The notes beneath the pieces are model-generated. The model saw only the letters and a program-made list of their open reading frames with translations, had not been told where the DNA came from and did no database searches. Source: an uncultured Traorella sp. (lineage in GTDB: Bacteria > Bacillota_I > Bacilli_A > Erysipelotrichales > Erysipelotrichaceae). Taken from it: DNA of 63,602 bases. The first letter of the stretch is position 1. Every line of letters begins with the position of its first letter. Below, one piece after another: positions 12,418 to 36,154 of the stretch. The translations under genes were made by a program, and so were the position numbers. The DNA is taken from contig NZ_CALVGS010000113.1 in the NCBI RefSeq assembly GCF_944327115.1, positions 1 through 63,602 on the forward strand, written 5' to 3'.

Positions 12418-14169
12418 ATGGAAAGAACACATACCTGCGGTGAATTAACACTGCGTCATGTTGGTGAAACCGTTACTTTATGCGGCTGGGTCAATAAAAG
12501 AAGAAATTTTGGAGCTTTGGTCTTCATTGATCTGCGAGATCGTGAGGGTCTGACACAGTGTGTCTTTGATGAAAAAATATCAGAACAAATTGTCAGCGTT
12601 CGAAATGAATATGTTCTTCAGGTAACAGGAACAGTAGTTGAACGACAGGATAAGAACCCAAAGATGAAAACAGGCGATATCGAAATCAGCGTCAGTGAGG
12701 TAAAAATCATCAACAGTGCTGAAACAACACCTCTGATCATCGCCAATCAGACAGATGCCCTGGAAGATACACGTTTGAAATATCGTTATCTGGATCTTCG
12801 TCGTGAATGTCTGCAGAACAATTTAAAATTAAGACACCAGGTAACGATGTGTGCCCGTAATTATTTATCCGATCTGGGCTTTTTGGAAATCGAAACACCG
12901 ATCCTTTGCAAATCGACACCTGAGGGAGCCCGTGATTATTTAGTACCAAGCAGGATTTCAAAAGGAAGCTTTTATGCTTTACCGCAGTCACCGCAGATTT
13001 ATAAACAGCTGTTGATGATTGCCGGCATGGATAAATATTTTCAGATTGCCCGCTGCTTCAGAGATGAGGATCTGCGCTCAGACAGACAGCCTGAATTTGA
13101 TCAGATCGATATTGAAATGTCATTTGCCGATGAAAATGATATCTTTTCTGTCGTTGAAGGTCTGATGAGAAAGATATTTAAGGATACCAAGGGAATTGAA
13201 GTAGATGAATTTAAGAGAATTCCTTATGATGAGTGCATGTCAAGATTTGGTTCAGATAAACCGGATCTGCGCTTTGGTATGGAAATTGTTGATCTTTCCG
13301 AAATATTTAAAGATACTGACTTTACGATTTTTAAGAATATCTTGCATGATAAGGGCATGATCAATGGTATCGTGGCAAGAAATGCCGCTGATAAGTTTTC
13401 ACGTAAGGACTGTGACCACTTAGGTGAATTTGTGAAGGTATATGGAGCCAAAGCTTTATCTTTCTTAAAGTTTACGGATCATAGCTGGAGCGGTTCGATC
13501 CATAAGGTATTAAGTGAGGATGAAAAAGCACGATTGCAAGAAAAATTACAGATTGAAGACAATGATATCATCTTTATTGTTGCGGATAAGCCAAAGATCT
13601 CATTGACCGCTTTAGGCGCTTTGCGCGTTAAATTAGGCAAAGAGCTGCAGCTGATCGATGAGAAGAAATATTGTTTCTTGTGGGTCACGGATTTCCCGAT
13701 GTTTGAATATGATGAAGCTGAGGCCCGTTATGTAGCGGCCCACCATCCGTTTACAGCACCTAAGGCTGAGGATGTCGATAAGCTGATCAGTGATCCTGCA
13801 CATTGTTATTCAAGAGCCTATGACCTTGTTTTAAACGGTTATGAGCTTCTCAGCGGTTCGATCCGTATCCATGATCAGCAGCTTCAGGAAAAGGTGTTTG
13901 AAGCTATCGGGCTGACACCAAAGCAGGCTGAAGAAAAATTTGGTTTCTTCCTTGAAGCCTTTAAATACGGCGCACCTCCTCATGGCGGTGTGGGGATCGG
14001 ATTAGAACGTTTGATCATGATCCTGGCCGGTACGGACAATATTCGTGATGTCATTGCTTTCCCGAAAACTGCCAGTGCCAGCGATCTGATGAGCGAAGCA
14101 CCTTCTGAGGTTGATGAAAGTCAGCTTGAAGAGCTTGGCCTGATGATCAGAAAAAAGGATGGGAAATAA
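12418..14169 (+). CDS. aspS: Aspartyl-tRNA synthetase
   Basis: A 583-residue bacterial-type class II enzyme. The N-terminal OB-fold anticodon-binding domain (about 1-105) is followed by the catalytic core with the FRDEDLRSDRQPEFDQIDIEMSF-type motif 2 region, the bacterial insertion (GAD) domain near 280-410, and motif 3 GVGIGLERLIMIL. The start codon follows the hisS stop without a gap, so translation is coupled. The ribosome-binding site GAGGAGAG lies within the last codons of hisS. No information was found that separates discriminating from non-discriminating type. Confidence 0.97.
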   Translation: MERTHTCGELTLRHVGETVTLCGWVNKRRNFGALVFIDLRDREGLTQCVFDEKISEQIVSVRNEYVLQVTGTVVERQDKNPKMKTGDIEISVSEVKIINSAETTPLIIANQTDALEDTRLKYRYLDLRRECLQNNLKLRHQVTMCARNYLSDLGFLEIETPILCKSTPEGARDYLVPSRISKGSFYALPQSPQIYKQLLMIAGMDKYFQIARCFRDEDLRSDRQPEFDQIDIEMSFADENDIFSVVEGLMRKIFKDTKGIEVDEFKRIPYDECMSRFGSDKPDLRFGMEIVDLSEIFKDTDFTIFKNILHDKGMINGIVARNAADKFSRKDCDHLGEFVKVYGAKALSFLKFTDHSWSGSIHKVLSEDEKARLQEKLQIEDNDIIFIVADKPKISLTALGALRVKLGKELQLIDEKKYCFLWVTDFPMFEYDEAEARYVAAHHPFTAPKAEDVDKLISDPAHCYSRAYDLVLNGYELLSGSIRIHDQQLQEKVFEAIGLTPKQAEEKFGFFLEAFKYGAPPHGGVGIGLERLIMILAGTDNIRDVIAFPKTASASDLMSEAPSEVDESQLEELGLMIRKKDGK

Positions 14170-14198
14170 TTCCTTTGCTCCCATACCAAATAATTTAT

Positions 14199-14229
14199 AA
14201 AAAATCAAGAGTATACTTTTGATTTTTTT
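14199..14229 (+). terminator. Terminator of the hisS-aspS operon
   Basis: AAAATCAA/TTGATTTT arms with a 10-nt loop, then a T tract. It is AT-only but well placed. Its T tract merges with the -10 of the 6S RNA promoter. Confidence 0.5.
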
Positions 14230-14239
14230 ATAATATAAT
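14229..14239 (+). promoter_or_regulatory. -10 region of the 6S RNA gene
   Basis: Two overlapping TATAAT hexamers (14229-14234 and 14234-14239) lie 7-15 nt before the start of the RNA's closing stem. No convincing -35 is visible because the region is shared with the aspS terminator. Confidence 0.5.
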
Positions 14240-14245
14240 GGAATT

Positions 14246-14395
14246 GTCCAAAAGGTTCAAATTTTTCCTCAAAGTTGAGATAAGGGAGTCCGGACGTTGA
14301 AATTTGGTGTTGAATGCCTGTGTTTCATAGGAATCCTAAAGATTTTCACAGGACACCCACCTGTATATACAGGGAAAGATCTCACCTTTTGGGTA
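14246..14395 (+). ncRNA. ssrS: 6S RNA (regulator of RNA polymerase), candidate
   Basis: A non-coding stretch of about 150 nt between aspS and dedA has a long closing stem: CCAAAAGGT (14248-14256) pairs with ACCTTTTGG (14384-14392), and GAGAT (14277-14281) pairs with ATCTC (14379-14383). The centre is a large unpaired region, and the 3' side contains CACCCACCTGTA, a motif I know from Firmicutes 6S RNAs. A promoter precedes it and a strong terminator follows. 6S RNA mimics an open promoter and holds the sigma-A RNA polymerase in stationary phase. Position next to aspS also matches what I recall of the Bacillus bsrA locus. A covariance-model search would be decisive. Confidence 0.8.
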
Positions 14396-14421
14396 AGCGG
14401 GTTTAATCCCGCTTTTCTTTT
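14396..14421 (+). terminator. Terminator of 6S RNA
   Basis: Stem AGCGGG/CCCGCT with loop TTTAAT followed by TTTCTTTT. Confidence 0.8.
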
Positions 14422-14457
14422 GTGTAAAAAGTTGTTATAATAGGCGAGAGGTGTTAT

Positions 14458-15057
14458 ATGGAAACATGGATTGTTGAATTTATCGAACAGTTTGGATACT
14501 TAGCGGTATTTTTACTGATTGCGGTGGAAAATATATTTCCGCCGATCCCAAGTGAAATCATCTTGACCTTTGCAGGTTTTATGATCACCAAAAGCGGATT
14601 GGGATTTTTTGGAATGGCCTTTTCTTCAACGCTGGGGTCATATATCGGAGCCCTTGTCTTATATGGGCTGGGTTATTTTTTGCGGCCGGAGAAATTTGAA
14701 CGATTTTTAAATCTTTTTAAATTTAATCTTGAGGATGTTGAAAAGGCACAAAAATGGTTTAATGATAAGGGATCGCTGACCGTCTTCTTTTGCCGGTTCG
14801 TACCGATCATTCGTTCACTGATCAGCATTCCCGCAGGTATGAGTCGTATGAAAATGCTTCCTTTTTCGTTATATACGGTTGTAGGAAGCCTGATATGGAA
14901 TTGTGTGCTGATCTATATCGGAACAATACTTGGAGATCATTATGGCTTGATTTCCGGCTATATGGAGCAGTATGGAATCGTTGTGGGCATCGTTATCGTA
15001 ATTATTGGTGCTGCATGGCTGACCATGAAGCTGATGAAAAAGAAGAAAGGTGCTTAA
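14458..15057 (+). CDS. DedA family membrane protein (VTT domain)
   Basis: A 199-residue membrane protein with about five hydrophobic helices and two re-entrant segments. The VTT/DedA signatures ENIFPPIPSEIIL near residue 25 and FFCRFVPIIRSLISIPAGMSRM near residue 105 carry the conserved acidic and arginine residues. Members of this family are described as lipid scramblases or flippases, including recycling of undecaprenyl phosphate (UptA). Which lipid is moved here is not visible. AGAGGTG precedes the ATG. It is followed by truB after 22 bp and may be co-transcribed with truB and ribF. Confidence 0.88.
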   Translation: METWIVEFIEQFGYLAVFLLIAVENIFPPIPSEIILTFAGFMITKSGLGFFGMAFSSTLGSYIGALVLYGLGYFLRPEKFERFLNLFKFNLEDVEKAQKWFNDKGSLTVFFCRFVPIIRSLISIPAGMSRMKMLPFSLYTVVGSLIWNCVLIYIGTILGDHYGLISGYMEQYGIVVGIVIVIIGAAWLTMKLMKKKKGA

Positions 15058-15079
15058 AAGCAGCCTTTAAGGTAGAGAA

Positions 15080-15913
15080 ATGGAAAATCTAAACGGACTT
15101 TTACTTGTTAATAAACCGCAAAATATGACTTCCTTCGATGTTGTTGCCATCATGCGAAAAAAGCTTCACGTGAAAAAGATCGGTCACAGCGGTACATTAG
15201 ATCCGATGGCCGAAGGGGCTTTGTTATTGCTGATCGGCAAGGCTACCAAGATCCTTCCTTATCTGGAAAATACCGATAAAGAATATATCGCAACCTTTGA
15301 GCTTGGAAAACAAACCGATACGGAGGATATATGGGGGAATGTCATTGAAGAAAAAGAAGTGAGGGAAATTGATGATCTTTCTTCGCTCTGTCACTCTTTC
15401 ATCGGCAAGCAGAAGCAATTACCGCCAATGGTCAGTTCCATTAAAGTGAATGGTAAAAAGCTTTATGAATACGCCCGTGACAAGATCGAAGTTGAACGCC
15501 CTTTAAGAGATATCGAAATCTATGATATTGAAGTTCTGGATAAAAATAAGATAAGGGTCAGCTGTTCAAGCGGTACATATATCCGTTCTCTGATTCGTGA
15601 TATGGCGCTTCAAAGCGGTAATATCGGTTGTATGAGCTCACTGATCAGAACACGAATAGGAAATTTTACGCTCGATGACTGTTATCAGCTGGATGAGGTG
15701 GACGTTGATACGGTTCAGCTTCATTCCATCTATGAGGCATTAAACTATCTGCCTATGATCGAAATTGAGAATGAACGGGATGTCATGAACGGCAAAAAGC
15801 TGCGTTTGGATACAAAGGAAGACCGGGTGTTGATGGTAAAGGATAAAGAAGCTTTGGCAATTTATCAACGTCATCATCAGAATATTTTTAGCTGTGAAAG
15901 AGGTTTATGGTAA
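15080..15913 (+). CDS. truB: tRNA pseudouridine-55 synthase
   Basis: A 277-residue enzyme converting U55 of the tRNA T-loop to pseudouridine. The catalytic aspartate lies in the conserved GHSGTLDPMAEGAL motif near residue 40. The KxxxYEYAR and CSSGTYIRSLIRD segments are also typical. The last part is a short C-terminal extension slightly shorter than in Bacillus. In many bacteria truB follows infB and rbfA; here it is paired with ribF only, and the two overlap by a few bases, a common arrangement in Firmicutes. Confidence 0.95.
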   Translation: MENLNGLLLVNKPQNMTSFDVVAIMRKKLHVKKIGHSGTLDPMAEGALLLLIGKATKILPYLENTDKEYIATFELGKQTDTEDIWGNVIEEKEVREIDDLSSLCHSFIGKQKQLPPMVSSIKVNGKKLYEYARDKIEVERPLRDIEIYDIEVLDKNKIRVSCSSGTYIRSLIRDMALQSGNIGCMSSLIRTRIGNFTLDDCYQLDEVDVDTVQLHSIYEALNYLPMIEIENERDVMNGKKLRLDTKEDRVLMVKDKEALAIYQRHHQNIFSCERGLW

Positions 15914-16818
15914 TGAAAGTAATACGTATGGATTTAAATGAGATAGAGCAATTAGAAGATTTAGCGGCCTGTATCGGCTATTTTGATGGAATGCATGTGG
16001 GACATATGCGTTTGATCGAGAAAACGCTTGAACAGGCTGATAAAAAAGGCTTAAAGAGTGCCTGTATTACTTTTGATCCGGATCCCTGGTGCGTTATCAA
16101 GCAGATGAAGGATATTGCTCATATCACTTCTATGGAAGAGCGTATCGAAATCGGACGTCAGTGCGGATTGGATTATTGGATCATCCTTTCCTTTACAAAG
16201 CAACTGGCATCTTTATCGTATCGTGATTTTGAAAAAATGCTGGATCAGATGAATGTCAAAGTATTGATTTGCGGTTTTGACTATTCATATGGCTATAAGG
16301 GTGAAGGAAATGTTGAAACATTGAGAAAACAGTCTTATTTTGATGTGATAGAAGTTGAAGAAGTCACATATGAGGATGAAAAAATATCTTCGAGCCGTAT
16401 TGAGGAAACGATACAGAAAGGGGATATGCGTACGACGACACATTTGCTGGGAAGACCTTATTCTATTAAGGGAACGGTTGCTGAAGGACGTTCTTTGGGA
16501 CATACGATCGGTTTCCCTACGGCGAATCTGAAGATGAAGCATCATTCCATCCTGCCTCTTGTAGGAGTATATATCGGTTATGCCTATGTGGAGGGAAGGC
16601 ATTATAAATGTATGATCAATGTAGGTCATAATCCGACCTTTAATTATAAAGAGGATATTGCGGTAGAAGCCTATTTGGTTGATTTTGATCAAAAGATCTA
16701 TGGCGATGAGATGGAGCTGATCTTTATTGAAAGAATACGGGATGAGAAGCGCTTTGCCAGTAAGGAAGAACTGGTGGAACAGCTTAAATGTGATGTGCTG
16801 AAGGCAAAAGCACTTTAG
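15913..16818 (+). CDS. ribF: Bifunctional riboflavin kinase/FAD synthetase
   Basis: A 301-residue enzyme producing FMN and then FAD. The N-terminal nucleotidyltransferase domain shows GYFDGMHVGHMRL near residue 20 and the IEETIQKGD... ISSSRI segment. The C-terminal flavokinase domain has GHTIGFPTANL and GVYIGYAYV. Two starts are possible: ATG at 15907 overlaps truB by 7 bp but is only 3 nt from AGAGG, while the ATG at 15913, which still shares one base with the truB stop codon, has a better spacing. It ends just before the hairpin described at spoIIIAH. Confidence 0.95.
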   Translation: MKVIRMDLNEIEQLEDLAACIGYFDGMHVGHMRLIEKTLEQADKKGLKSACITFDPDPWCVIKQMKDIAHITSMEERIEIGRQCGLDYWIILSFTKQLASLSYRDFEKMLDQMNVKVLICGFDYSYGYKGEGNVETLRKQSYFDVIEVEEVTYEDEKISSSRIEETIQKGDMRTTTHLLGRPYSIKGTVAEGRSLGHTIGFPTANLKMKHHSILPLVGVYIGYAYVEGRHYKCMINVGHNPTFNYKEDIAVEAYLVDFDQKIYGDEMELIFIERIRDEKRFASKEELVEQLKCDVLKAKAL

Positions 16819-16846
16819 GTATAAACCTCCTTTTGTTTCATATAAT
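16819..16846 (+). promoter_or_regulatory. Sigma-E-like promoter of spoIIIAH
   Basis: GTATAAA (16819-16825), a 13-nt spacer and CATATAAT (16839-16846), matching the CATANNNT -10 of sigma-E with an ATA-centred -35. The predicted start is about 16853, just at the Shine-Dalgarno sequence. The same -10 also contains TATAAT, so a sigma-A reading is possible. Confidence 0.5.
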
Positions 16847-16867
16847 GAAATGCAAGGAGGTTTTTTT
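16823..16867 (+). terminator. Terminator-like hairpin whose 3' arm is the spoIIIAH ribosome-binding site
   Basis: AAACCTCCTT (16823-16832) pairs perfectly with AAGGAGGTTT (16854-16863), and TTTCAT (16836-16841) pairs with ATGAAA (16845-16850). Seven T follow the arm, then the ATG at 16869. A ribF transcript would end here or hide AAGGAGG; a transcript started inside the loop would not. Confidence 0.75.
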
Positions 16868-16868
16868 G

Positions 16869-17324
16869 ATGAATAAACAAGCCCTCGCTTTTATCAGCAT
16901 GTTTACATTAGTGCTGATGCTTTCGATTTATTATGTATCGCTGGAAACGATCACTCCTCAAGACAATACGCCTGTCAGTGATGTTACGAGCGTGATGGCT
17001 GTTTTAAATGAGCAGAATCTGGAAAAAAAGAATGCTTTGGTATTGCAGCTGAAGGAACAGCTGGGAAGCAGTGAAACAAGTGAAGAAAAGAAGAAAGAGG
17101 TTCTTTCGAAGATCGAAGCGATCGAGAGTAATAAACAGATAGAAGAAAGGATCGTCGATGCACTGGAACAAAAAGGTATAAAAGGTGTTGTGAATATTGA
17201 AGATGACATCGTAAAGACCCATGTTTTTGAAACAGAGAAAAGCAATGAAAAAGCTGATGAGATCATGCGTTTGATTTATCCGCTGATTACCTCGGATCAG
17301 ACGATCGAATTAGTTTTTAGTTGA
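16869..17324 (+). CDS. spoIIIAH: Stage III sporulation protein AH (SpoIIIAH-like)
   Basis: A 151-residue single-pass membrane protein: one membrane helix at about residues 7-25, a charged coiled coil at about 45-95, and a C-terminal ring-building domain. In spore formers it sits in the mother-cell membrane and locks with forespore SpoIIQ to form the feeding-tube channel during engulfment. The start at 16869 is set by AAGGAGG 8 nt upstream; a longer frame begins upstream without such a signal. The other spoIIIA genes, which normally precede it, are absent; ribF is the neighbour instead. The following gene is asp23 (yqhY), the order found in Bacillus after removal of accB and accC. Confidence 0.85.
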   Translation: MNKQALAFISMFTLVLMLSIYYVSLETITPQDNTPVSDVTSVMAVLNEQNLEKKNALVLQLKEQLGSSETSEEKKKEVLSKIEAIESNKQIEERIVDALEQKGIKGVVNIEDDIVKTHVFETEKSNEKADEIMRLIYPLITSDQTIELVFS

Positions 17325-17342
17325 AAGATGTTCCACTTTCAA
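17321..17342 (+). terminator. Hairpin after spoIIIAH
   Basis: TTGAAAG/CTTTCAA inverted repeat without a T-run, running into a TATAAT (17344-17349) that may drive the Asp23-like gene. Weak as a terminator. Confidence 0.35.
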
Positions 17343-17369
17343 GTATAATAGCAATAGAAGGTGATAAAA

Positions 17370-17696
17370 GTGGCACAAGAATATATTTGTATCAAAAAAT
17401 CAAATGATTACGGACAGATAGCAATCAATAAAAAAGTATTTGAATCAATTGCATTGATCGAAATCGGAGAAGAAGAAAAAAAGGTCGTACCGGATTCTTC
17501 AAGATTTAAGAATGCTGTAAGCTGCAGGGTTTCTAAGAATTCGCTGGTACTGAATGTTGATGTGAAGGTAAACTATCAGCTGAATGTGAATGAGATCTGT
17601 TCACGTCTTCAGGATAAGATTTATAATTCGATCCTGCATATGACAGGTGTGAAGATGGATATGATAGATATCAAGGTGACCGGATTCATTTTCTAG
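17370..17696 (+). CDS. Asp23/Gls24 family envelope-stress-type protein (YqhY-like)
   Basis: A 108-residue protein made almost entirely of one Asp23 domain, the small alpha/beta fold named after the alkaline-shock protein of staphylococci. The position directly before nusB matches YqhY of Bacillus, which is linked to control of acetyl-CoA carboxylase; here accB and accC are missing from the neighbourhood, so that link is only an inference. GTG at 17370 is chosen because AGAAGGTG lies 6 nt upstream; an upstream GTG at 17361 overlaps that site. A TATAAT at 17344-17349 suggests its own promoter, and a terminator follows. Confidence 0.82.
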   Translation: MAQEYICIKKSNDYGQIAINKKVFESIALIEIGEEEKKVVPDSSRFKNAVSCRVSKNSLVLNVDVKVNYQLNVNEICSRLQDKIYNSILHMTGVKMDMIDIKVTGFIF

Positions 17697-17703
17697 CTTA
17701 ATT

Positions 17704-17724
17704 ACACCCTAACGGGTGTTTTTG
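17704..17724 (+). terminator. Terminator after the Asp23-like gene
   Basis: Stem ACACCC/GGGTGT with TAAC loop and TTTTT. Confidence 0.7.
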
Positions 17725-17762
17725 AATGGCATATGTGTTAAAATGAATAAACGGAGGATATT

Positions 17763-18134
17763 ATGAGCAGACATACATTACGAGAAACAGCGATGACCTG
17801 TCTTTATCAGTATTTTCTTTTACATGGTGATATCAAGTCGATCGTTTATGAAAATGCCGGAAATGAAATCGATCCGTTTCTTTATACGGTAACGATCGAT
17901 GCATTGAAGCATAAGGATTATTATATACAGAAAATCAATGATGTATTGAGTGATGATTGGGAATTTGACCGTCTGGGCTGTGTTGAAAAGGCAATTCTTT
18001 TAATGGCCGCTGCAGAGCTTGATTTTGAAACGGCAAATAAGGCCATCGTCATTGATGAAGCTGTGACCCTTTCTAAAAAGTATTGTGACAGTGATACTTA
18101 TAAGCTGATCAATGGAGTGCTGGATAAGCTATGA
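17763..18134 (+). CDS. nusB: Transcription antitermination factor NusB
   Basis: A 123-residue all-helical RNA-binding protein that, with NusE (S10), binds boxA and keeps RNA polymerase moving through rRNA genes. The N-terminal R-ETAMTCLYQY and the C-terminal AILLMAAAEL and AVTLSKKYCDSDTYKLINGVLDKL-type region are characteristic. GGAGG precedes the ATG. The stop overlaps the xseA start by 4 bp. folD, which lies between these genes in Bacillus, is missing. Confidence 0.93.
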   Translation: MSRHTLRETAMTCLYQYFLLHGDIKSIVYENAGNEIDPFLYTVTIDALKHKDYYIQKINDVLSDDWEFDRLGCVEKAILLMAAAELDFETANKAIVIDEAVTLSKKYCDSDTYKLINGVLDKL

Positions 18135-19465
18135 TGAATCGGATGTGGTCAGTTTCCGCATTGGTTTCTTATATCAAACGAGGAATCGATCATGATGAGA
18201 ATTTAATGCAGCTTCTGGTACGTGGTGAAATCAGCAATCTTGTGAAGCATCGTTCAGGACATTATTATTTCACATTAAAAGATGATAAAGCTCGGATGAG
18301 CTGTGTCATGTTTTCAAATTATGCAAGACTCGTTCGTTTTGATCTTGAAAATGGCAGCAGGGTGATCGCACAGTGCAAGGTCAGTGTCTATGAGGCTGGC
18401 GGCAGCGTGCAGCTTTATGTCAATGGTCTGCAGCCGGATGGCATCGGTGAGATGTATCTGCAGCTGGAGGCCTTGAAGAAAAAAATGATGAGTGAGGGTT
18501 ATTTTGATCCCGCACATAAAAAGAAGCTGCCGATGTATCCGATGGATATTGCTTTGATCAGTGCGAAAGAAGCTGCTGCGGCAAGTGATGTCCGAACAAC
18601 GATCGCCCGTCGCTGGCCATTAGCCAAAATTACGTTCTACCCATCATTGGTCCAGGGAAGTGAGGCTGCAGCGATGCTGATCGAAACGATAAAAAAAGCA
18701 GATCAAAAGCACCATGATGTTATTTTGCTGGTGCGGGGCGGCGGCAGCATCGAAGATCTTTGGGCCTTTAATCAGGAGGCATTGGCAAAATGTATTTATG
18801 ATGCGGCAACTCCTATCGTTACCGGAGTTGGTCATGAAACGGATACAACGCTTGTCGATTATGTCAGTGATGCCAGAGCAGCGACACCTACTGCAGCAGC
18901 AGAATTGGTGACGCCGGATATTCAGGAAGTGAGCGATCAGCTTCAGCGGTATAAAAAGATGATGGCGGATCGGTTAAAGATGCTTCTGGATCGTTCAACG
19001 CATCGTCTTGATAAGGTGAAAAGCCATCCTTATATAAAAAATCCGATGGCATATATCGAAAACAGCATGATGAGCCTTGATCTCAAAAGAAATGCTTTTG
19101 AAACATATATCCATGGTATGATGAATTTACATAGTGATGTTGAACAAAAACGTATCCGTTTTGCACATGCAGGCAGTCTGATGGTACAGAAGATGGAAAA
19201 TCAGCTTTGGCAGCAAAATGATAAGCTGCTTATGCATACAAAGCGATATGGTTTGGACAGTGAAAGAGAATTAAGAGGGAGGATCCAGCTTTTAGATGCT
19301 TATTCGCCCTTGAAAATACTGCTTCGCGGTTATTCGCTGACAAAGATAAACGGACATTGTATCAAAAGCATTGATGACGTACAGGTAAATGACAGGATCG
19401 TAACGACTTTAAGTGACGGTGAAATATATTCAAATGTTTTGAAAAAGGAGAAGAAACATGAGTGA
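18131..19465 (+). CDS. xseA: Exodeoxyribonuclease VII large subunit
   Basis: A 444-residue nuclease subunit. An N-terminal OB fold (about 5-100, with LVRGEISNLVKHRSGHYYFTLKD-type sequence) precedes the catalytic domain with RGGGSIEDLWAFN and the GVGHETDTTLVD...ARAATPTAAAEL region, followed by a long coiled coil. With XseB it degrades single-stranded DNA from both ends. Two adjacent ATG codons start the gene, the first overlapping the nusB stop. Confidence 0.96.
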   Translation: MMNRMWSVSALVSYIKRGIDHDENLMQLLVRGEISNLVKHRSGHYYFTLKDDKARMSCVMFSNYARLVRFDLENGSRVIAQCKVSVYEAGGSVQLYVNGLQPDGIGEMYLQLEALKKKMMSEGYFDPAHKKKLPMYPMDIALISAKEAAAASDVRTTIARRWPLAKITFYPSLVQGSEAAAMLIETIKKADQKHHDVILLVRGGGSIEDLWAFNQEALAKCIYDAATPIVTGVGHETDTTLVDYVSDARAATPTAAAELVTPDIQEVSDQLQRYKKMMADRLKMLLDRSTHRLDKVKSHPYIKNPMAYIENSMMSLDLKRNAFETYIHGMMNLHSDVEQKRIRFAHAGSLMVQKMENQLWQQNDKLLMHTKRYGLDSERELRGRIQLLDAYSPLKILLRGYSLTKINGHCIKSIDDVQVNDRIVTTLSDGEIYSNVLKKEKKHE

Positions 19466-19667
19466 TAAATTATCTTTTAAACAGTCTATGAATAGAATAG
19501 ATGAGATTTTGGATCTTTTGGAAAAGAACGAAATCGATCTGGAGGAAGCAATCTCTCTTTTTGAAGAAGGATTGAAGCTTGTTCATGACTGTGATCAGCA
19601 ATTAATTGCTTTTAAGGACAAGATGAATGAGCTGATCCAAAGCTATGAAGGTGAAGACCATGCATGA
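19458..19667 (+). CDS. xseB: Exodeoxyribonuclease VII small subunit
   Basis: A 69-residue helical protein that wraps around the XseA coiled coil. The conserved LEEAISLFEEGLKLV segment is present near residue 33. AAAAGGAG is 9 nt upstream. The gene overlaps xseA by 8 bp and ispA by 8 bp, so the three are translated as a coupled unit. Confidence 0.95.
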   Translation: MSDKLSFKQSMNRIDEILDLLEKNEIDLEEAISLFEEGLKLVHDCDQQLIAFKDKMNELIQSYEGEDHA

Positions 19668-20496
19668 TTTTGAAGAAAAATTGGCACATTCACTCGATCA
19701 TCTTGAAGCATCAAGAGTAAAAGAGGCCATGCTTTATTCATTATGTGCACCGGCCAAGCGCCTGCGTCCACAACTGCTTTACGGCGTTTTGAAAGCATAT
19801 GGGGTCAATGAATCACAGGGTGATAACTGTGCCATTGCGATTGAGATGATTCATTCTTATTCTTTGATCCATGATGATCTTCCTTGTATGGATAATGATG
19901 ATCTTAGAAGAGGACAGAAAACCTGTCATAAACAGTTTGATGAAGCCACTGCTCTTTTAGCCGGTGATGCTTTGTTGAGCGAGGCTTTTGGATATGTGGC
20001 CAATGCCACTTATCAAAACAGCATCAATAATGATCTGGTAGGAGAATTTGTAAAGGCGATCGGTGCTAACGGGATGATCTTAGGACAGATGATCGACCTG
20101 TTAAGCGAAAACATAAAAACGGATCTGGATACGATCAGCAAGATCGATCTTCTGAAGACCGGCTGTCTTTTTTCCTTAGCGCTTGTCAGCGGCTGCTTGA
20201 TTGCCAACAAGAAGGGGGATATCGAGGTTTGGCGAAATATCGGTTATAAGGCAGGTTTGGCTTTTCAGATTCAGGATGACTGCCTGGATATCACGAGCAA
20301 TGAAGAAAAGCTTGGAAAGAGCATCAGTGATGAGAAAAATCAAAAAAGTACCTTTGTTTCCGAGCTGGGTTTTGAAAAAGCCCAAAAGCTTTATCTTCAG
20401 TATTTTGATGAAATTGAAAATGATCTTAAAAAATGTAATATTCACAGCGAATCAATTTTAAATATCTTTCAGATGATAAAAAATCGCGATCATTAA
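19660..20496 (+). CDS. ispA: Farnesyl diphosphate synthase (short-chain polyprenyl synthetase)
   Basis: A 278-residue trans-isoprenyl synthase. The first aspartate-rich motif DDLPCMDNDD near residue 72 and the second FQIQDDCLD near residue 203 bind the Mg-diphosphate. It condenses IPP with allylic diphosphates to make FPP for undecaprenyl synthesis. The start at 19660 is preferred over 19645 because AAGGTGAAG precedes it. It is translationally coupled to xseB and followed 9 bp later by dxs, so early and mid steps of the isoprenoid pathway are joined. Confidence 0.92.
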   Translation: MHDFEEKLAHSLDHLEASRVKEAMLYSLCAPAKRLRPQLLYGVLKAYGVNESQGDNCAIAIEMIHSYSLIHDDLPCMDNDDLRRGQKTCHKQFDEATALLAGDALLSEAFGYVANATYQNSINNDLVGEFVKAIGANGMILGQMIDLLSENIKTDLDTISKIDLLKTGCLFSLALVSGCLIANKKGDIEVWRNIGYKAGLAFQIQDDCLDITSNEEKLGKSISDEKNQKSTFVSELGFEKAQKLYLQYFDEIENDLKKCNIHSESILNIFQMIKNRDH

Positions 20497-23206: not shown

Positions 23207-24856
23207 ATGTTTAAAGAAATATACGTTAAAAATTTTGTTCTGATCGATGATCTTCATCTGGAATTTTCTGAAGGACTCTCTGCTTTTACCGGTGAAACTG
23301 GTGCCGGTAAAAGTCTTTTGATCGATGCAATCTCTTTATTGTGCGGAGCAAGAGCCAGCAGTGAATATGTTGCGATAGATAAGGATTATGCACTGATCGA
23401 AGGAGTCTTTACATTGGATGAGAAGCATCCGGCAGCAGTGCTATGTGAGGAGATGGGGATCGAATTGGAAGATGAAATGATCGTCACCAGAAAAATAAAC
23501 AGTGACGGCAAAAGCAGCATCAAGATCAATCAGCGAAGCATTCCTTTATCATCGCTGCGTATGATCATGTCCCAGCTGATCGACATTCATTCCCAGCATG
23601 ATACACAGTATTTATTGAATAAACAATATCATATCACTTTGCTTGATGAATACTGTCACATGGAAAAGAAGCTGGATGAGTGCAAAAAGAAGTATCAGAG
23701 CTATCAGAAGGCATTACATGCTTATGAAGAATTTCAGAATAATGAATTAAGTGATGATCTTGATTTTCTAAGGTATCAGGTCAATGAGATCGATCAGGCA
23801 GAATTGAGTGAAGAGAAGCTTTCTGACATGAATGAAGAGTTGAATCAGTTAAATAACTTTGAAAAGCTGAATGAACATCTTTCAAATGCCTATGAACATC
23901 TGACTAATACCGATAAAACTCTTGAAAATCTTTATGAAGCCATTCATTCGCTTGAATCATTAAAAGAATTTGAATGGGTCGATGAGCTGACTGAGAAGCT
24001 GAATGATTGTTACTATGAAATTGAAGAAGCTTCATCACAGATCAATGATCACCTGCAGCATTTGGATTATGATGAAAATCGTGTCAATGAGATCAATGAA
24101 TATCTTTTTCTCTACAATAACCTTAAACGCAAGCATGGAAATAGCGTAAAAGAAATTCTGGAAAAACGGGATCAGCTCATGCAGCGGATCGAAATGATCG
24201 AAAATCGTGCAGAGATGCTTGAAAAGCTGAAATATCAGGTGGATGAAGCCTATGGCAGCTTTGAAAAGACGGCACTTGAAATTTCTGCGATTCGTAAGGA
24301 AAAGGCGAGATTGCTGGAAAATGAGATCATGAAGGAATGTTGTGATCTCTATCTGGAAAAGGCACGTTTTGAGGTTCGCTTTGAAGCGTGTGATGCGAAT
24401 GTGCGAGGACTTGACAGGGTAGAGTTTTATGTTTCAATGAATCCCGGGGAACCTTTAAAACCTCTTTGTAATGTCGCAAGCGGAGGGGAATTGTCACGCT
24501 TGATGCTTGGACTAAAAACGATCTTTACGGATCTTACCTCGATTGAAACGATCATCTTTGATGAAATCGATACCGGTGTTTCGGGAAAGGTTGCTTTAGC
24601 TATCGGCAGAAAAATGCGTCAGATTGCCCAACGTCATCAGTTATTTGCAATCACCCATCTTTCCAGTGTCGCAGCCTGTGCCCACCATCATTATGTGGTA
24701 GAAAAGACGCAGTCTGCCGATTCGACAAAGACGCATATTCGTGAGCTGGACAAGGAAGAAATCATCGCTTCACTTGCCCTTATGTCTACAAATTCGATGA
24801 GCGAGAGTGCACTTATGGCCGCCAGAGAGCTTTATGAAAGTGCTCAGGTAAAATAA
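23207..24856 (+). CDS. recN: DNA repair protein RecN
   Basis: A 549-residue SMC-like ATPase that gathers DNA ends at double-strand breaks. The Walker A motif GETGAGKS is at 29-36. Two coiled-coil arms cover about 150-370, and the C-terminal signature SGGELSRLMLGLKT and Walker B IIFDEIDTGVSG follow. The protein is intact and of normal length. It precedes spoIVB and spo0A as in Bacillus. Its transcript would run into the spoIVB hairpin 15 bp downstream. Confidence 0.96.
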   Translation: MFKEIYVKNFVLIDDLHLEFSEGLSAFTGETGAGKSLLIDAISLLCGARASSEYVAIDKDYALIEGVFTLDEKHPAAVLCEEMGIELEDEMIVTRKINSDGKSSIKINQRSIPLSSLRMIMSQLIDIHSQHDTQYLLNKQYHITLLDEYCHMEKKLDECKKKYQSYQKALHAYEEFQNNELSDDLDFLRYQVNEIDQAELSEEKLSDMNEELNQLNNFEKLNEHLSNAYEHLTNTDKTLENLYEAIHSLESLKEFEWVDELTEKLNDCYYEIEEASSQINDHLQHLDYDENRVNEINEYLFLYNNLKRKHGNSVKEILEKRDQLMQRIEMIENRAEMLEKLKYQVDEAYGSFEKTALEISAIRKEKARLLENEIMKECCDLYLEKARFEVRFEACDANVRGLDRVEFYVSMNPGEPLKPLCNVASGGELSRLMLGLKTIFTDLTSIETIIFDEIDTGVSGKVALAIGRKMRQIAQRHQLFAITHLSSVAACAHHHYVVEKTQSADSTKTHIRELDKEEIIASLALMSTNSMSESALMAARELYESAQVK

Positions 24857-24857
24857 A

Positions 24858-24887
24858 GAATAAAGATATGACCTCCCATCCATACTA
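24858..24887 (+). promoter_or_regulatory. Sigma-G (or sigma-F) type promoter of spoIVB
   Basis: GAATA (24858-24862), an 18-nt spacer and CATACTA (24881-24887) match the sigma-G consensus of a gHATR -35 and a CATNHTA -10. The predicted start near 24894 leaves a leader of about 12 nt holding only the ribosome-binding site. In Bacillus spoIVB is a forespore gene, which agrees. Confidence 0.65.
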
Positions 24888-24905
24888 GATGTGGGAGGTT
24901 TTTAT
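24871..24905 (+). terminator. Terminator-like hairpin whose 3' arm is the spoIVB ribosome-binding site
   Basis: ACCTCCCA (24871-24878) pairs with TGGGAGGT (24892-24899), followed by TTTTTA and the ATG at 24906. The sigma-G -10 lies in the loop. It can serve as the recN terminator and hides GGGAGG in read-through RNA. Confidence 0.75.
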
Positions 24906-25880
24906 ATGAAAAGAAAATATGTCATATTTCTACTTCTCCTAGGACTTTTTACGGTTTCCGTTCAGTCCAGAGAAGTTTATCTAGGCGGTGAAAGCATTGG
25001 CATTCAGCTGCAATATGAAGGTGTGCTGATTACTGCCACTTATCAGGTGGATACCAAAGATTTTTCGTATAATCCTTCACAGAGTGATATTCAAAGCGGT
25101 GATACGCTCAAGGAGATTGATGGCAGAAAGATCGACACCTTGGAACAGCTCAATGAAATTCTATTACAAAAAAAGAATCAGACAGTTGTATGTACCTTAA
25201 AAAGAAAAAATGAAATCATTTACCGTAATCTCAAGGTCATCGAAGATCATGGCAAGATCAAAACCGGCTTATTCGTAAAAGATGAGATCATGGGCATAGG
25301 TACCTTGACTTATATCGATCCTGCAAATTCTACCTATGGATCCTTAGGTCATGAAATCATCGATCAGGACACTAAACAAACCATTCGCTTTGATCAGGGA
25401 ATCCTTTATACATCAAGCGTGAAAGATATACAAAAAGCCCAAATATCACGTGTTGGCGAAAAACAGGCCTTGATTCATTTTGATCATTCTATCGGTAATA
25501 TTTTAAAGATCAGTCGCTTTGGTGTATTTGGAAACAGTTATGAACCTTTGTCAGAGCGTTTGATCGAAACAGCTTTACAGGAAGAGATCAATATAGGAAA
25601 AGCAACAATGTATACCGTATTAAATGATGAAAAAGTAGAAGCGATCGAAATTGAGATCATAAAAAAATATAAGCAGAGCGAAGCAGATATCAAAAGCTTT
25701 GAATTTGTGATCATTGATGCGCAAATATTAGAAAAAACAGGCGGTATCATACAGGGAATGAGCGGATCACCAATCGTACAAAATGAAAAGCTGATCGGAG
25801 CGGTCACGCATGTATCTGCCCAAAATCCTGCAACCGGCTTTGGTGTTTATATCGAATGGATGCTGGAAGAAAGCGACTAA
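24906..25880 (+). CDS. spoIVB: SpoIVB-type serine peptidase (S55)
   Basis: A 324-residue exported protease. An N-terminal hydrophobic segment (about 4-20) is followed by a PDZ domain (about 55-115) and an S55 peptidase domain with the histidine in GSLGHE (H149) and the serine in GMSGSPI (S288). In Bacillus it is secreted from the forespore and cuts SpoIVFA to switch on sigma-K in the mother cell. It is shorter than the 425-residue Bacillus protein. Start chosen from GGGAGG and the ATG at 24906. It lies between recN and spo0A in the conserved order. Confidence 0.92.
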   Translation: MKRKYVIFLLLLGLFTVSVQSREVYLGGESIGIQLQYEGVLITATYQVDTKDFSYNPSQSDIQSGDTLKEIDGRKIDTLEQLNEILLQKKNQTVVCTLKRKNEIIYRNLKVIEDHGKIKTGLFVKDEIMGIGTLTYIDPANSTYGSLGHEIIDQDTKQTIRFDQGILYTSSVKDIQKAQISRVGEKQALIHFDHSIGNILKISRFGVFGNSYEPLSERLIETALQEEINIGKATMYTVLNDEKVEAIEIEIIKKYKQSEADIKSFEFVIIDAQILEKTGGIIQGMSGSPIVQNEKLIGAVTHVSAQNPATGFGVYIEWMLEESD

Positions 25881-34657: not shown

Positions 34658-36133
34658 TTAAAGAACGATTGCGATAACATTGCCTTTTCCTTTATTTACC
34701 AGCTTTGTCAAAATATCCTGCAAACGGACGCGTGCGGTTTCCGGAATCATGGATAATTTTACATTCAGACCATCTTTGATCAGATCAGAAAGCTTACGCC
34801 CAAAAATATCTGATTCCCAGATTGTCTGTGAATTTTCACTGTCCCTTGTCAGATATCGAATCAATTCTTCGCTTTGCTGTTTGGAGCCTATGATCGGTTC
34901 AAAGCTGCTTTCGACATCTACCTTGATCATATGGATGCTTGGTGCAACAGCCTTCAGCTTGACGCCATAGCGGCTTCCCTGCTTGATGATTTCCGGCTGT
35001 GATAGCTCGATCTCATCCAGTGATGCACTTGCAAAGCCATAACCTGTAAGCTTCACCATCTTTAATGCATTGGAGATAGCATCATATTCCTTTTTAGCTT
35101 TTGAAAAATCCTGCATCAAAGAAAGCAATGAAGCTTTATCTACGACATCGACATGGATGATTTCCTTCAGGATTTGGCTGTATAAGCCTTTTTGTACTTG
35201 GATTTCGACATTGACATTACCGGTTCCGGGATCAATGCTGGCAAGATGCGATGACTCGATGTATTCATTTTCATTTAAAGCGAGGGTCAATGTTTCGACT
35301 TCCTTTAATTTTTCAATGATCGACATTCCCTGTTGGATCGAATCATTGATCGTCTTTTTCAGCCAGTGGCTCTTATCCAGTACATCGACCCATGTCGGAA
35401 GCTGAATGCTAATTTGAGCGACCGGAAATTCATACAAGGCTTCCTTAAGCAGCTGTAAGATATCGCTTTCCTCTAAACGGTTGACAGCGAGAGCTAAAAC
35501 AGGAGCATGAACTTTTTCCTTTAAACGGGCAACGACATTTTCACATTGCGCAGAGGCAGGATTTTTTGAATTAACGATGATGATAAATGGTTTTCCGATC
35601 TGATCCAATTCTTCAATAACTTCCATTTCTGCCTGTAAATAGGCTTCTCTTGGAATATCGGTAATCGAACCGTCGCTTGTGATGACGATACCGATCGTTG
35701 AATGATCTTGAATGACCTTCTGGGTCCCTACCTTTGCGGCCTCATCAAATGGAATCGCATCATCAAACCATGGTGTACGAACCATTCTTATACCGTTTTC
35801 ATCTTTATAGCCCTTTGCTTCTTCAATCACGTAACCCACACAGTCAACCAGACGTACATTGACCTTAAAACCATCTTCAAATTCAATTTGTGCTGCACTA
35901 TTTGGCACAAATTTAGGTTCAGCAGTAAGGATCGTTCTTCCTTCGCCCGATTGTGGCAATTCATCCGTCATGCGGGCTTTTTCATATTCATCATGTACGT
36001 ATGGAAGGACTGCCTTTTCCATAAATTTTTTAATAAAAGTACTTTTACCGACACGCACAGGCCCTACGATTCCTAAATATATGTCACCGCCGCACCTTTG
36101 TGCAATATTTTTATAGACTTCCAGTGTATTCAT
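34658..36133 (-). CDS. spoIVA: Stage IV sporulation protein A (coat basement ATPase)
   Basis: A 491-residue ATPase that polymerises around the forespore and anchors the spore coat. The Walker A motif GPVRVGKSTF is near residue 25, with the DCVGY Walker B/switch region and the ITSDGSITDIPR segment conserved in the family. The C-terminal domain (last 90 residues) ends in hydrophobic IAIVL. The start at 36133 has AGGAGG 6 nt upstream; a frame extending six codons further has none. The sigma-E promoter lies between gpsA and spoIVA. The order spoIVA-hup matches Bacillus, as does gpsA-der upstream. Confidence 0.95.
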   Translation of the reverse strand: MNTLEVYKNIAQRCGGDIYLGIVGPVRVGKSTFIKKFMEKAVLPYVHDEYEKARMTDELPQSGEGRTILTAEPKFVPNSAAQIEFEDGFKVNVRLVDCVGYVIEEAKGYKDENGIRMVRTPWFDDAIPFDEAAKVGTQKVIQDHSTIGIVITSDGSITDIPREAYLQAEMEVIEELDQIGKPFIIIVNSKNPASAQCENVVARLKEKVHAPVLALAVNRLEESDILQLLKEALYEFPVAQISIQLPTWVDVLDKSHWLKKTINDSIQQGMSIIEKLKEVETLTLALNENEYIESSHLASIDPGTGNVNVEIQVQKGLYSQILKEIIHVDVVDKASLLSLMQDFSKAKKEYDAISNALKMVKLTGYGFASASLDEIELSQPEIIKQGSRYGVKLKAVAPSIHMIKVDVESSFEPIIGSKQQSEELIRYLTRDSENSQTIWESDIFGRKLSDLIKDGLNVKLSMIPETARVRLQDILTKLVNKGKGNVIAIVL

Positions 36134-36154
36134 TTCAATCCTCCTAGTCATTAA

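Follow-up and report, generated by a model that had tools for sequence, protein, structure and literature searches.

Our analysis of a window of 63,602 nucleotides (the whole stretch of DNA that was examined), which comes from a Traorella-like gut bacterium of the Erysipelotrichaceae, points to 45 bases in the gap from ribF to spoIIIAH as what would be a single element with three jobs. We consider it probable that this element combines a transcription terminator, a lock on the Shine-Dalgarno sequence (SD) and a sporulation promoter, that it keeps spoIIIAH off during growth while leaving it accessible to sigma-E, and that it is reused as a cassette at other genes. The anatomy of the element, the conservation of its promoter, a complementarity specific to each locus and the recurrence of the cassette were all observed. 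In the mechanism that we infer for start sites, termination and the translation block, polymerase coming from truB-ribF would make an RNA with both arms, which would fold into an 18-bp hairpin followed by seven U and should end the truB-ribF transcript just before the start codon of spoIIIAH; transcripts that escape termination would keep the SD of spoIIIAH buried. During sporulation, sigma-E polymerase would start inside the hairpin, near 16851-16854, so that its RNA would lack the 5' arm and, with the 3' arm alone, would form no terminator and leave the SD reachable. Thus spoIIIAH could stay silent in growth yet open to sigma-E at only 50 nt behind a housekeeping gene, and the same cassette, with -10 sequences of sigma-F/G type or others, would serve spoIVB, spoVAC, a pdaA-like gene, a lipoprotein gene and a dprA-like gene.

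The gene in question (16869-17324, plus strand, 151 aa) lies downstream of the co-directional ribF (riboflavin kinase/FAD synthetase, by family match; 15907-16818, plus strand), the stop codon of which is 50 nt ahead of the spoIIIAH ATG. The name given to it in the preliminary description was borne out, and it rests on the family, since the window protein alone reaches 16.9 bits against PF12685, where Pfam sets its cut-off at 30.6. A profile of 20 homologues matches the SpoIIIAH structures 3UZ0 (E 8e-14) and 3TUF, 17 of these 20 match PF12685 at E 0.01 or better, and by these profile and family matches the gene behind ribF can be assigned as a SpoIIIAH homologue. The nearest named relative is Traorella massiliensis (87% identity). 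In the family 40 of 272 genomes were found to carry spoIIIAH, and in the order 68 of 315; in one Traorella MAG (G113, loci L032/L003) the reading frame is broken, which may be an assembly error. Neither SpoIIIAC (PF06686) nor SpoIIIAE (PF09546) was matched in the host's own genome, which is 96% complete, and the retention of spoIIIAH without them suggests a role outside the full SpoIIIA channel, for example in the SpoIIQ-SpoIIIAH zipper. Two Erysipelotrichia are described in PMC7924749 as having lost most spoIIIA genes. The upstream neighbours of spoIIIAH are co-directional in nearly all readable loci and vary in identity: Traorella and genus g20 have ribF there, most Erysipelotrichaceae loci a RelA/SpoT-domain protein, L027 RsmF, L015 and L057 an IMP-dehydrogenase-like protein (by eye), and the sister family elongation factor P.

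The hairpin is built of a perfect 10-bp outer stem, in which the 5' arm AAACCTCCTT (16823-16832, plus strand; from sequence, folding and arm exchange) lies within the promoter spacer and pairs with the 3' arm AAGGAGGTTT (16854-16863, plus strand; from sequence and folding), and of an inner stem (16834-16841 with 16845-16852, plus strand; from folding and a pair that covaries within the genus) closed by the apical loop ATA. The SD, AAGGAGG, lies inside the 3' arm at 16854-16860, and the run of seven T at 16861-16867 (plus strand) is both the U-tract of the putative terminator and the gap between SD and ATG; three of the seven T also belong to the outer stem. The preliminary description had the outer stem and the AAGGAGG of its 3' arm exactly right. 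Its second, 6-bp stem is present with six Watson-Crick pairs and has two G-U pairs in addition, and the seven T that it placed directly before the ATG are exact, but one G stands between them and the ATG at 16869.

The folding calculations are in line with this anatomy. The minimum free energy of 16800-16885 is -22.5 kcal/mol against a mean of -14 for shuffled sequences (sd 3.07, z -2.77), of which 3 in 200 fold as stably. Freeing the GGAGG of spoIIIAH in the read-through RNA is predicted to cost 13.1 kcal/mol, which ranks first among the 29 SD-bearing genes of the window (next 7.9, median 1.8) and second among 334 genes of a 431-kb sample of the genome, and which ranges from 10.4 to 15.4 kcal/mol across 18 choices of sequence context. 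When the 5' part alone was shuffled, the cost was 5.1±1.6 (p 0.005, the floor of 200 shuffles). For an RNA starting at 16849-16855 the predicted cost is 0.1-5.2 kcal/mol, and an RNA starting in the loop gives about 5 with 25 nt of coding sequence and 0.8 without it. According to the model the SD would be paired in read-through RNA and free in RNA from its own promoter, as it is in T4 gene e. The earlier proposal that read-through RNA hides the SD while sigma-E transcripts translate freely agrees with these predictions (13.1 versus about 1-5 kcal/mol), but "freely" is too strong, because in the sigma-E RNA the CCCTC of codons 5-6 offers the SD a pairing partner (4-5 kcal/mol). A simple terminator scan missed the site, since its loop limit is shorter than the 21 bases that separate the outer arms, and a search of 13000-20000 gave no Rfam family at the hairpin. 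Elsewhere in the window, a 6S RNA-like match at 14243-14398, upstream of a DedA/UptA-like gene, scores 45.1 bits against a gathering score of 46.4.

The promoter elements are interleaved with the hairpin. The putative -35, GTATAAA (16819-16825, plus strand), has its xATA 19 nt upstream of the CATA of the putative -10, CATATAAT (16839-16846, plus strand), and the latter lies in the hairpin apex, as the preliminary description had noticed; by the sigma-E consensus, the combination of CATAnnnT with an ATA at fixed spacing would be of sigma-E type. After merging of identical sequences there were 66 orthologue upstream regions, one of them too short, and in 53 of the 65 tested a CATA -10 with an xATA -35 at 19-20 nt upstream is kept at this position. 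The same geometry occurs in 3 of the 334 genes of the host's own genome, including spoIIIAH itself and spoIVA, and on this conservation spoIIIAH carries a candidate sigma-E promoter. The best match to SigE (TIGR02835) in the genome has E 1.5e-85 and 286.3 bits, below the cut-off of 348.6. By geometry alone, the transcript is predicted to start about 7 nt after the -10, at 16851-16854 on the plus strand; a start placed in this way gives leaders of about 13-21 nt in the orthologues (L064 excepted), so that a 5' arm lying in the spacer would never be part of the sigma-E RNA. The pattern CATAnnnT-N3..14-GGAGG was also counted over the genome (47 sites, against 25 for reversed-pattern controls) and was set aside as too unspecific when used alone.

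The pairing of the arms was followed in 38 loci of the Erysipelotrichaceae and 27 of a sister family, with a test in which only the part upstream of the -10 was shuffled; L057 was counted with the former, and L058, a doubtful homologue with no promoter motif, was left out. Fourteen of the 38 loci beat their shuffles at p<0.05, where about 2 are expected, 11 of them being listed below 0.01, and the fourteen span nine genera (g1, g13, g25, g39, g44, g51, g53, g54 and g55). The other 24 fail to do so, among them L054, which is mis-indexed at a contig end with 53 nt of upstream sequence and is to be ignored. The 5' arm is kept in part of the relatives, and the hairpin is weak or absent in more than half of the Erysipelotrichaceae loci. 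In the sister family 5 of 27 loci score p<0.05 although they do not have the hairpin-promoter architecture, presumably through pairing of the purine-rich SD region with the T-run of an upstream terminator.

The arms were also exchanged between genera, an approach chosen over covariation by columns because the position of the outer arms shifts with respect to the inner stem. With one representative for each of 17 genera the true combinations pair at -15.4 kcal/mol and the exchanged ones at about -10.8 (sd 0.76), and none of 20,000 permutations was as good (p=5e-5). Exchange worsens the pairing, hence the 5' and 3' arms change together, and the 5' arm appears to be conserved as complementarity and not as sequence. 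All five Traorella genomes retain six pairs of the inner stem, and the outermost pair of this stem is U-A, A-U or G-C depending on the genome, a covarying pair of the compensatory kind that the preliminary description had suggested looking for. Two of the five Traorella loci (L003 and L004) fold the hairpin without beating their shuffles, and a column alignment of the five sequences, a small set, lends some support with one pair changed on both sides (23 of 500 shuffles as good).

The terminator character of the hairpin is seen in the stem AACCTCC..GGAGGTT (-17.4 kcal/mol), which directly precedes TTTTT as expected for an intrinsic terminator, and in the gap between SD and ATG, which among the Erysipelotrichaceae orthologues is 68% T where the hairpin is present versus 39% where it is not (p=7e-5). 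In the sister family, where spoIIIAH has the same promoter geometry, a terminator also separates it from the upstream gene: at 25 of 27 loci an ordinary hairpin with a T-run precedes the promoter, in most of them leading directly into the -35. Unlike in Traorella, this hairpin ends before the -35 and does not involve the SD. Six Erysipelotrichaceae loci have an upstream terminator (L009, L015, L021, L023, L050 and L057), none of them among the fourteen significant ones, and about 18 have neither an overlapping hairpin nor an upstream terminator. By the sequences compared, insulation of spoIIIAH appears to be common, variable in form and not universal. A further way to overlap terminator and promoter is found in a Longicatena MAG (L021/L035), where the terminator loop holds the spoIIIAH -35 and the T-run abuts the -10.

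One would argue that the hairpin only ends the truB-ribF transcript, and that the SD sits in its 3' arm as a set of pre-existing purines with no lock intended. The T-run, the T-richness that tracks the hairpin and the plain terminator at the same place in the sister family all agree with this, and if the SD was reused as a 3' arm, this alone would select for CCTCC in the 5' arm. However, the SD is also paired at some loci that lack a T-run (L006 with TTTGCTT, L014 and L017 with ACTGCTT), and read-through RNA that forms such a hairpin will necessarily have its SD hidden, whatever the hairpin's origin, so that this explanation, which we regard as unlikely, differs from ours in purpose more than in effect. 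The opposite simplification, a lock in the style of T4 gene e with ribF transcripts continuing into spoIIIAH and asp23 and left untranslated at spoIIIAH, is in our judgment rather improbable. It draws on the SD pairing, which is the best supported feature, and on the three T consumed by the outer stem, which shorten the free U-run; against it, T-rich gaps accompany the hairpins, and the CCTCC/GGAGG core with seven T makes a good terminator by the usual criteria.

The combined element that we favour, in the order 5' arm, -10 in the loop, SD as 3' arm, T-run and ATG, was found at other genes of the genome as well. A scan of sequence from the genome for an SD within a strong hairpin revealed it also at spoIVB, spoVAC (TIGR02838, below cut-off), a pdaA-like deacetylase gene (TIGR02884, below cut-off) and a lipoprotein gene with no convincing family and a promoter of sigma-F/G type, TGAATA-N17-CATAGTA. 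The sample chosen by pattern is biased, and the fair one is the 334-gene sample, which consists of the window and 20 stretches not chosen by pattern (430,781 bases). Eight of its genes have an SD opening cost of 9 or more, and T-rich gaps between SD and ATG are found in 4 of these 8 versus 35 of the other 326 (p=0.008), the four being spoIIIAH, spoIVB, the lipoprotein gene and a dprA-like gene (named by eye). The five further cassette genes each lie 36-49 nt behind a co-directional neighbour, which with spoIIIAH makes six at 36-50 nt, and the neighbours are ribF (named by family match) and recN, sigF, mscL, rpiB and rnhB (named by eye). The second cassette within the window lies between the co-directional recN-like gene (23207-24856, plus strand, by eye) and spoIVB (24906-25880, plus strand; TIGR02860, E=2.4e-89, 300.1 bits, just below the cut-off of 305.25), and on the same strand it comprises the hairpin CCTCCCATC..GATGTGGGAGG (24872-24898), CATACTA in the loop (24881-24887) and five T (24899-24903). 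At spoIVB, the pdaA-like gene and the lipoprotein gene the predicted start touches the SD or lies within it, which leaves two possibilities, a start nearer to the -10 or an extremely short leader. A counter-example is spoIVA (34658-36151, minus strand), which follows a co-directional gene at 46 nt and has a sigma-E-type promoter with the geometry seen at spoIIIAH, but no SD hairpin (opening cost 4.0).

The hairpin with its T-run is kept, by eye, at all four Traorella loci of both spoVAC (three of four at p<0.05) and spoIVB (two of four at p<0.05), and in genus g25 at both genes (both p<0.05); few of the other 50 of the 60 spoVAC and spoIVB loci read have this hairpin with a T-run (by eye), and the hairpin of the lipoprotein gene is present in two of four readable Traorella loci. 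Exchange of arms among five spoVAC loci gave 2 of 120 permutations as good as the true pairing, and among five spoIVB loci 12 of 120, which is not significant. Many spoIVB loci of the sister family (L225-L242) have a short hairpin, for example TGTAAC-ATTT-GTTACA, between a -10-like sequence and the SD.

The two remaining explanations are both very improbable. An inverted repeat bound by a dimeric regulator would account for the overlap with -35, spacer and -10, but the sequence of the repeat differs across genera while its complementarity persists, and the SD is always one arm and the offset of the stem varies, which fits RNA pairing and not a conserved operator. Chance pairing of a strong SD in an AT-rich gap would suit the 24 of 38 loci without a significant hairpin, but not the exchange between genera (p=5e-5), the 14 of 38 at p<0.05 or the recurrence at other alternative-sigma genes.

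The hiding of a ribosome-binding site (RBS) in a promoter-specific way is a mechanism of a known kind. In Tn10/IS10 and IS200 the read-through RNA folds over the transposase RBS and the RNA from the element's own promoter does not; unlike the Traorella cassette, these belong to mobile elements and not to developmental genes. In T4 gene e and I-TevI it was demonstrated experimentally that longer early transcripts hide the RBS and that late transcripts, which start inside the hairpin without its 5' strand, are translated (available parts of PMC3014915 and PMC2988022). T4 gene e thus resembles spoIIIAH in having a promoter within the hairpin that sequesters the RBS. It differs as a phage device that depends on a late-phage sigma factor, with no U-run or terminator described for the hairpin in those parts of the papers, whereas the Traorella cassette has sigma-E or sigma-F/G-like promoters and an apparent terminator and occurs at several chromosomal genes. 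The same logic was proposed for a sporulation gene, sigG (spoIIIG) of Bacillus subtilis, where RNA that reads through from spoIIG is predicted to be kept from translation by a hairpin of 20+ bp, which cannot form in the PsigG transcript (PMC5942855, in its available part, which credits the hairpin to Masuda 1988 and Sun 1991). That is one gene behind a sporulation operon, with no terminator role described there, while the Traorella cassette recurs and most of its genes lie behind ordinary housekeeping genes. What is new here is that a terminator, a lock on the SD and an alternative-sigma promoter would be joined in a single element that is used repeatedly; in the mostly non-subscription literature searched we found no description of the fusion with a terminator, of a -10 in the loop or of reuse behind unrelated housekeeping genes.

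All parts of the preliminary description that the sequence could test came out in its favour, and its interpretation is supported to that extent; it did not see that the hairpin is weak or absent in many loci, that conventional terminators occur elsewhere or that the cassette recurs. We give about even chances to the broader view that in Traorella and some relatives a standard cassette no longer than 50 bp, with terminator, SD lock and promoter spacer/-10 in one sequence, embeds developmental genes in dense housekeeping clusters, and that it arose or was remade repeatedly at different genes. If this is true, the cassette would be general for sigma-E, sigma-F/G and perhaps competence genes. The element would be a compact and sequence-recognisable answer to the need to keep stage-specific genes silent behind constitutive ones with no intergenic space to spare. 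It would allow start sites and sigma dependence to be predicted in spore-formers with no need for genetics, could serve as an insulated promoter part, and offers at one orthologous site an evolutionary series of upstream terminator, overlapping terminator and none.

Strong SD hairpins outside the cassette were found at an IS-type transposase gene (L156, by eye) and at a 6-phospho-beta-glucosidase-like gene beside a BglG-like gene (L168, by eye). Two more candidates were rejected: an 89-aa gene (L146), the loop of which has no CATA, and a lipoprotein gene (L254:4229, plus strand), which has no T-run and carries TATAAT inside its SD-sequestering hairpin (opening cost 10.8), which might combine this lock with a vegetative promoter. 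Finally, a GATGCATATAAAAtAGTAGGAGG-like sequence lies upstream of a comGA-like gene (T2SSE family; window 45695, minus strand), of a gene for a secreted 494-aa protein (window 33425, minus strand) and of the dprA-like gene (L243:2167, plus strand), which suggests the promoter of a dedicated, perhaps competence, sigma factor; the dprA-like gene carries both this sequence and the SD-terminator hairpin.
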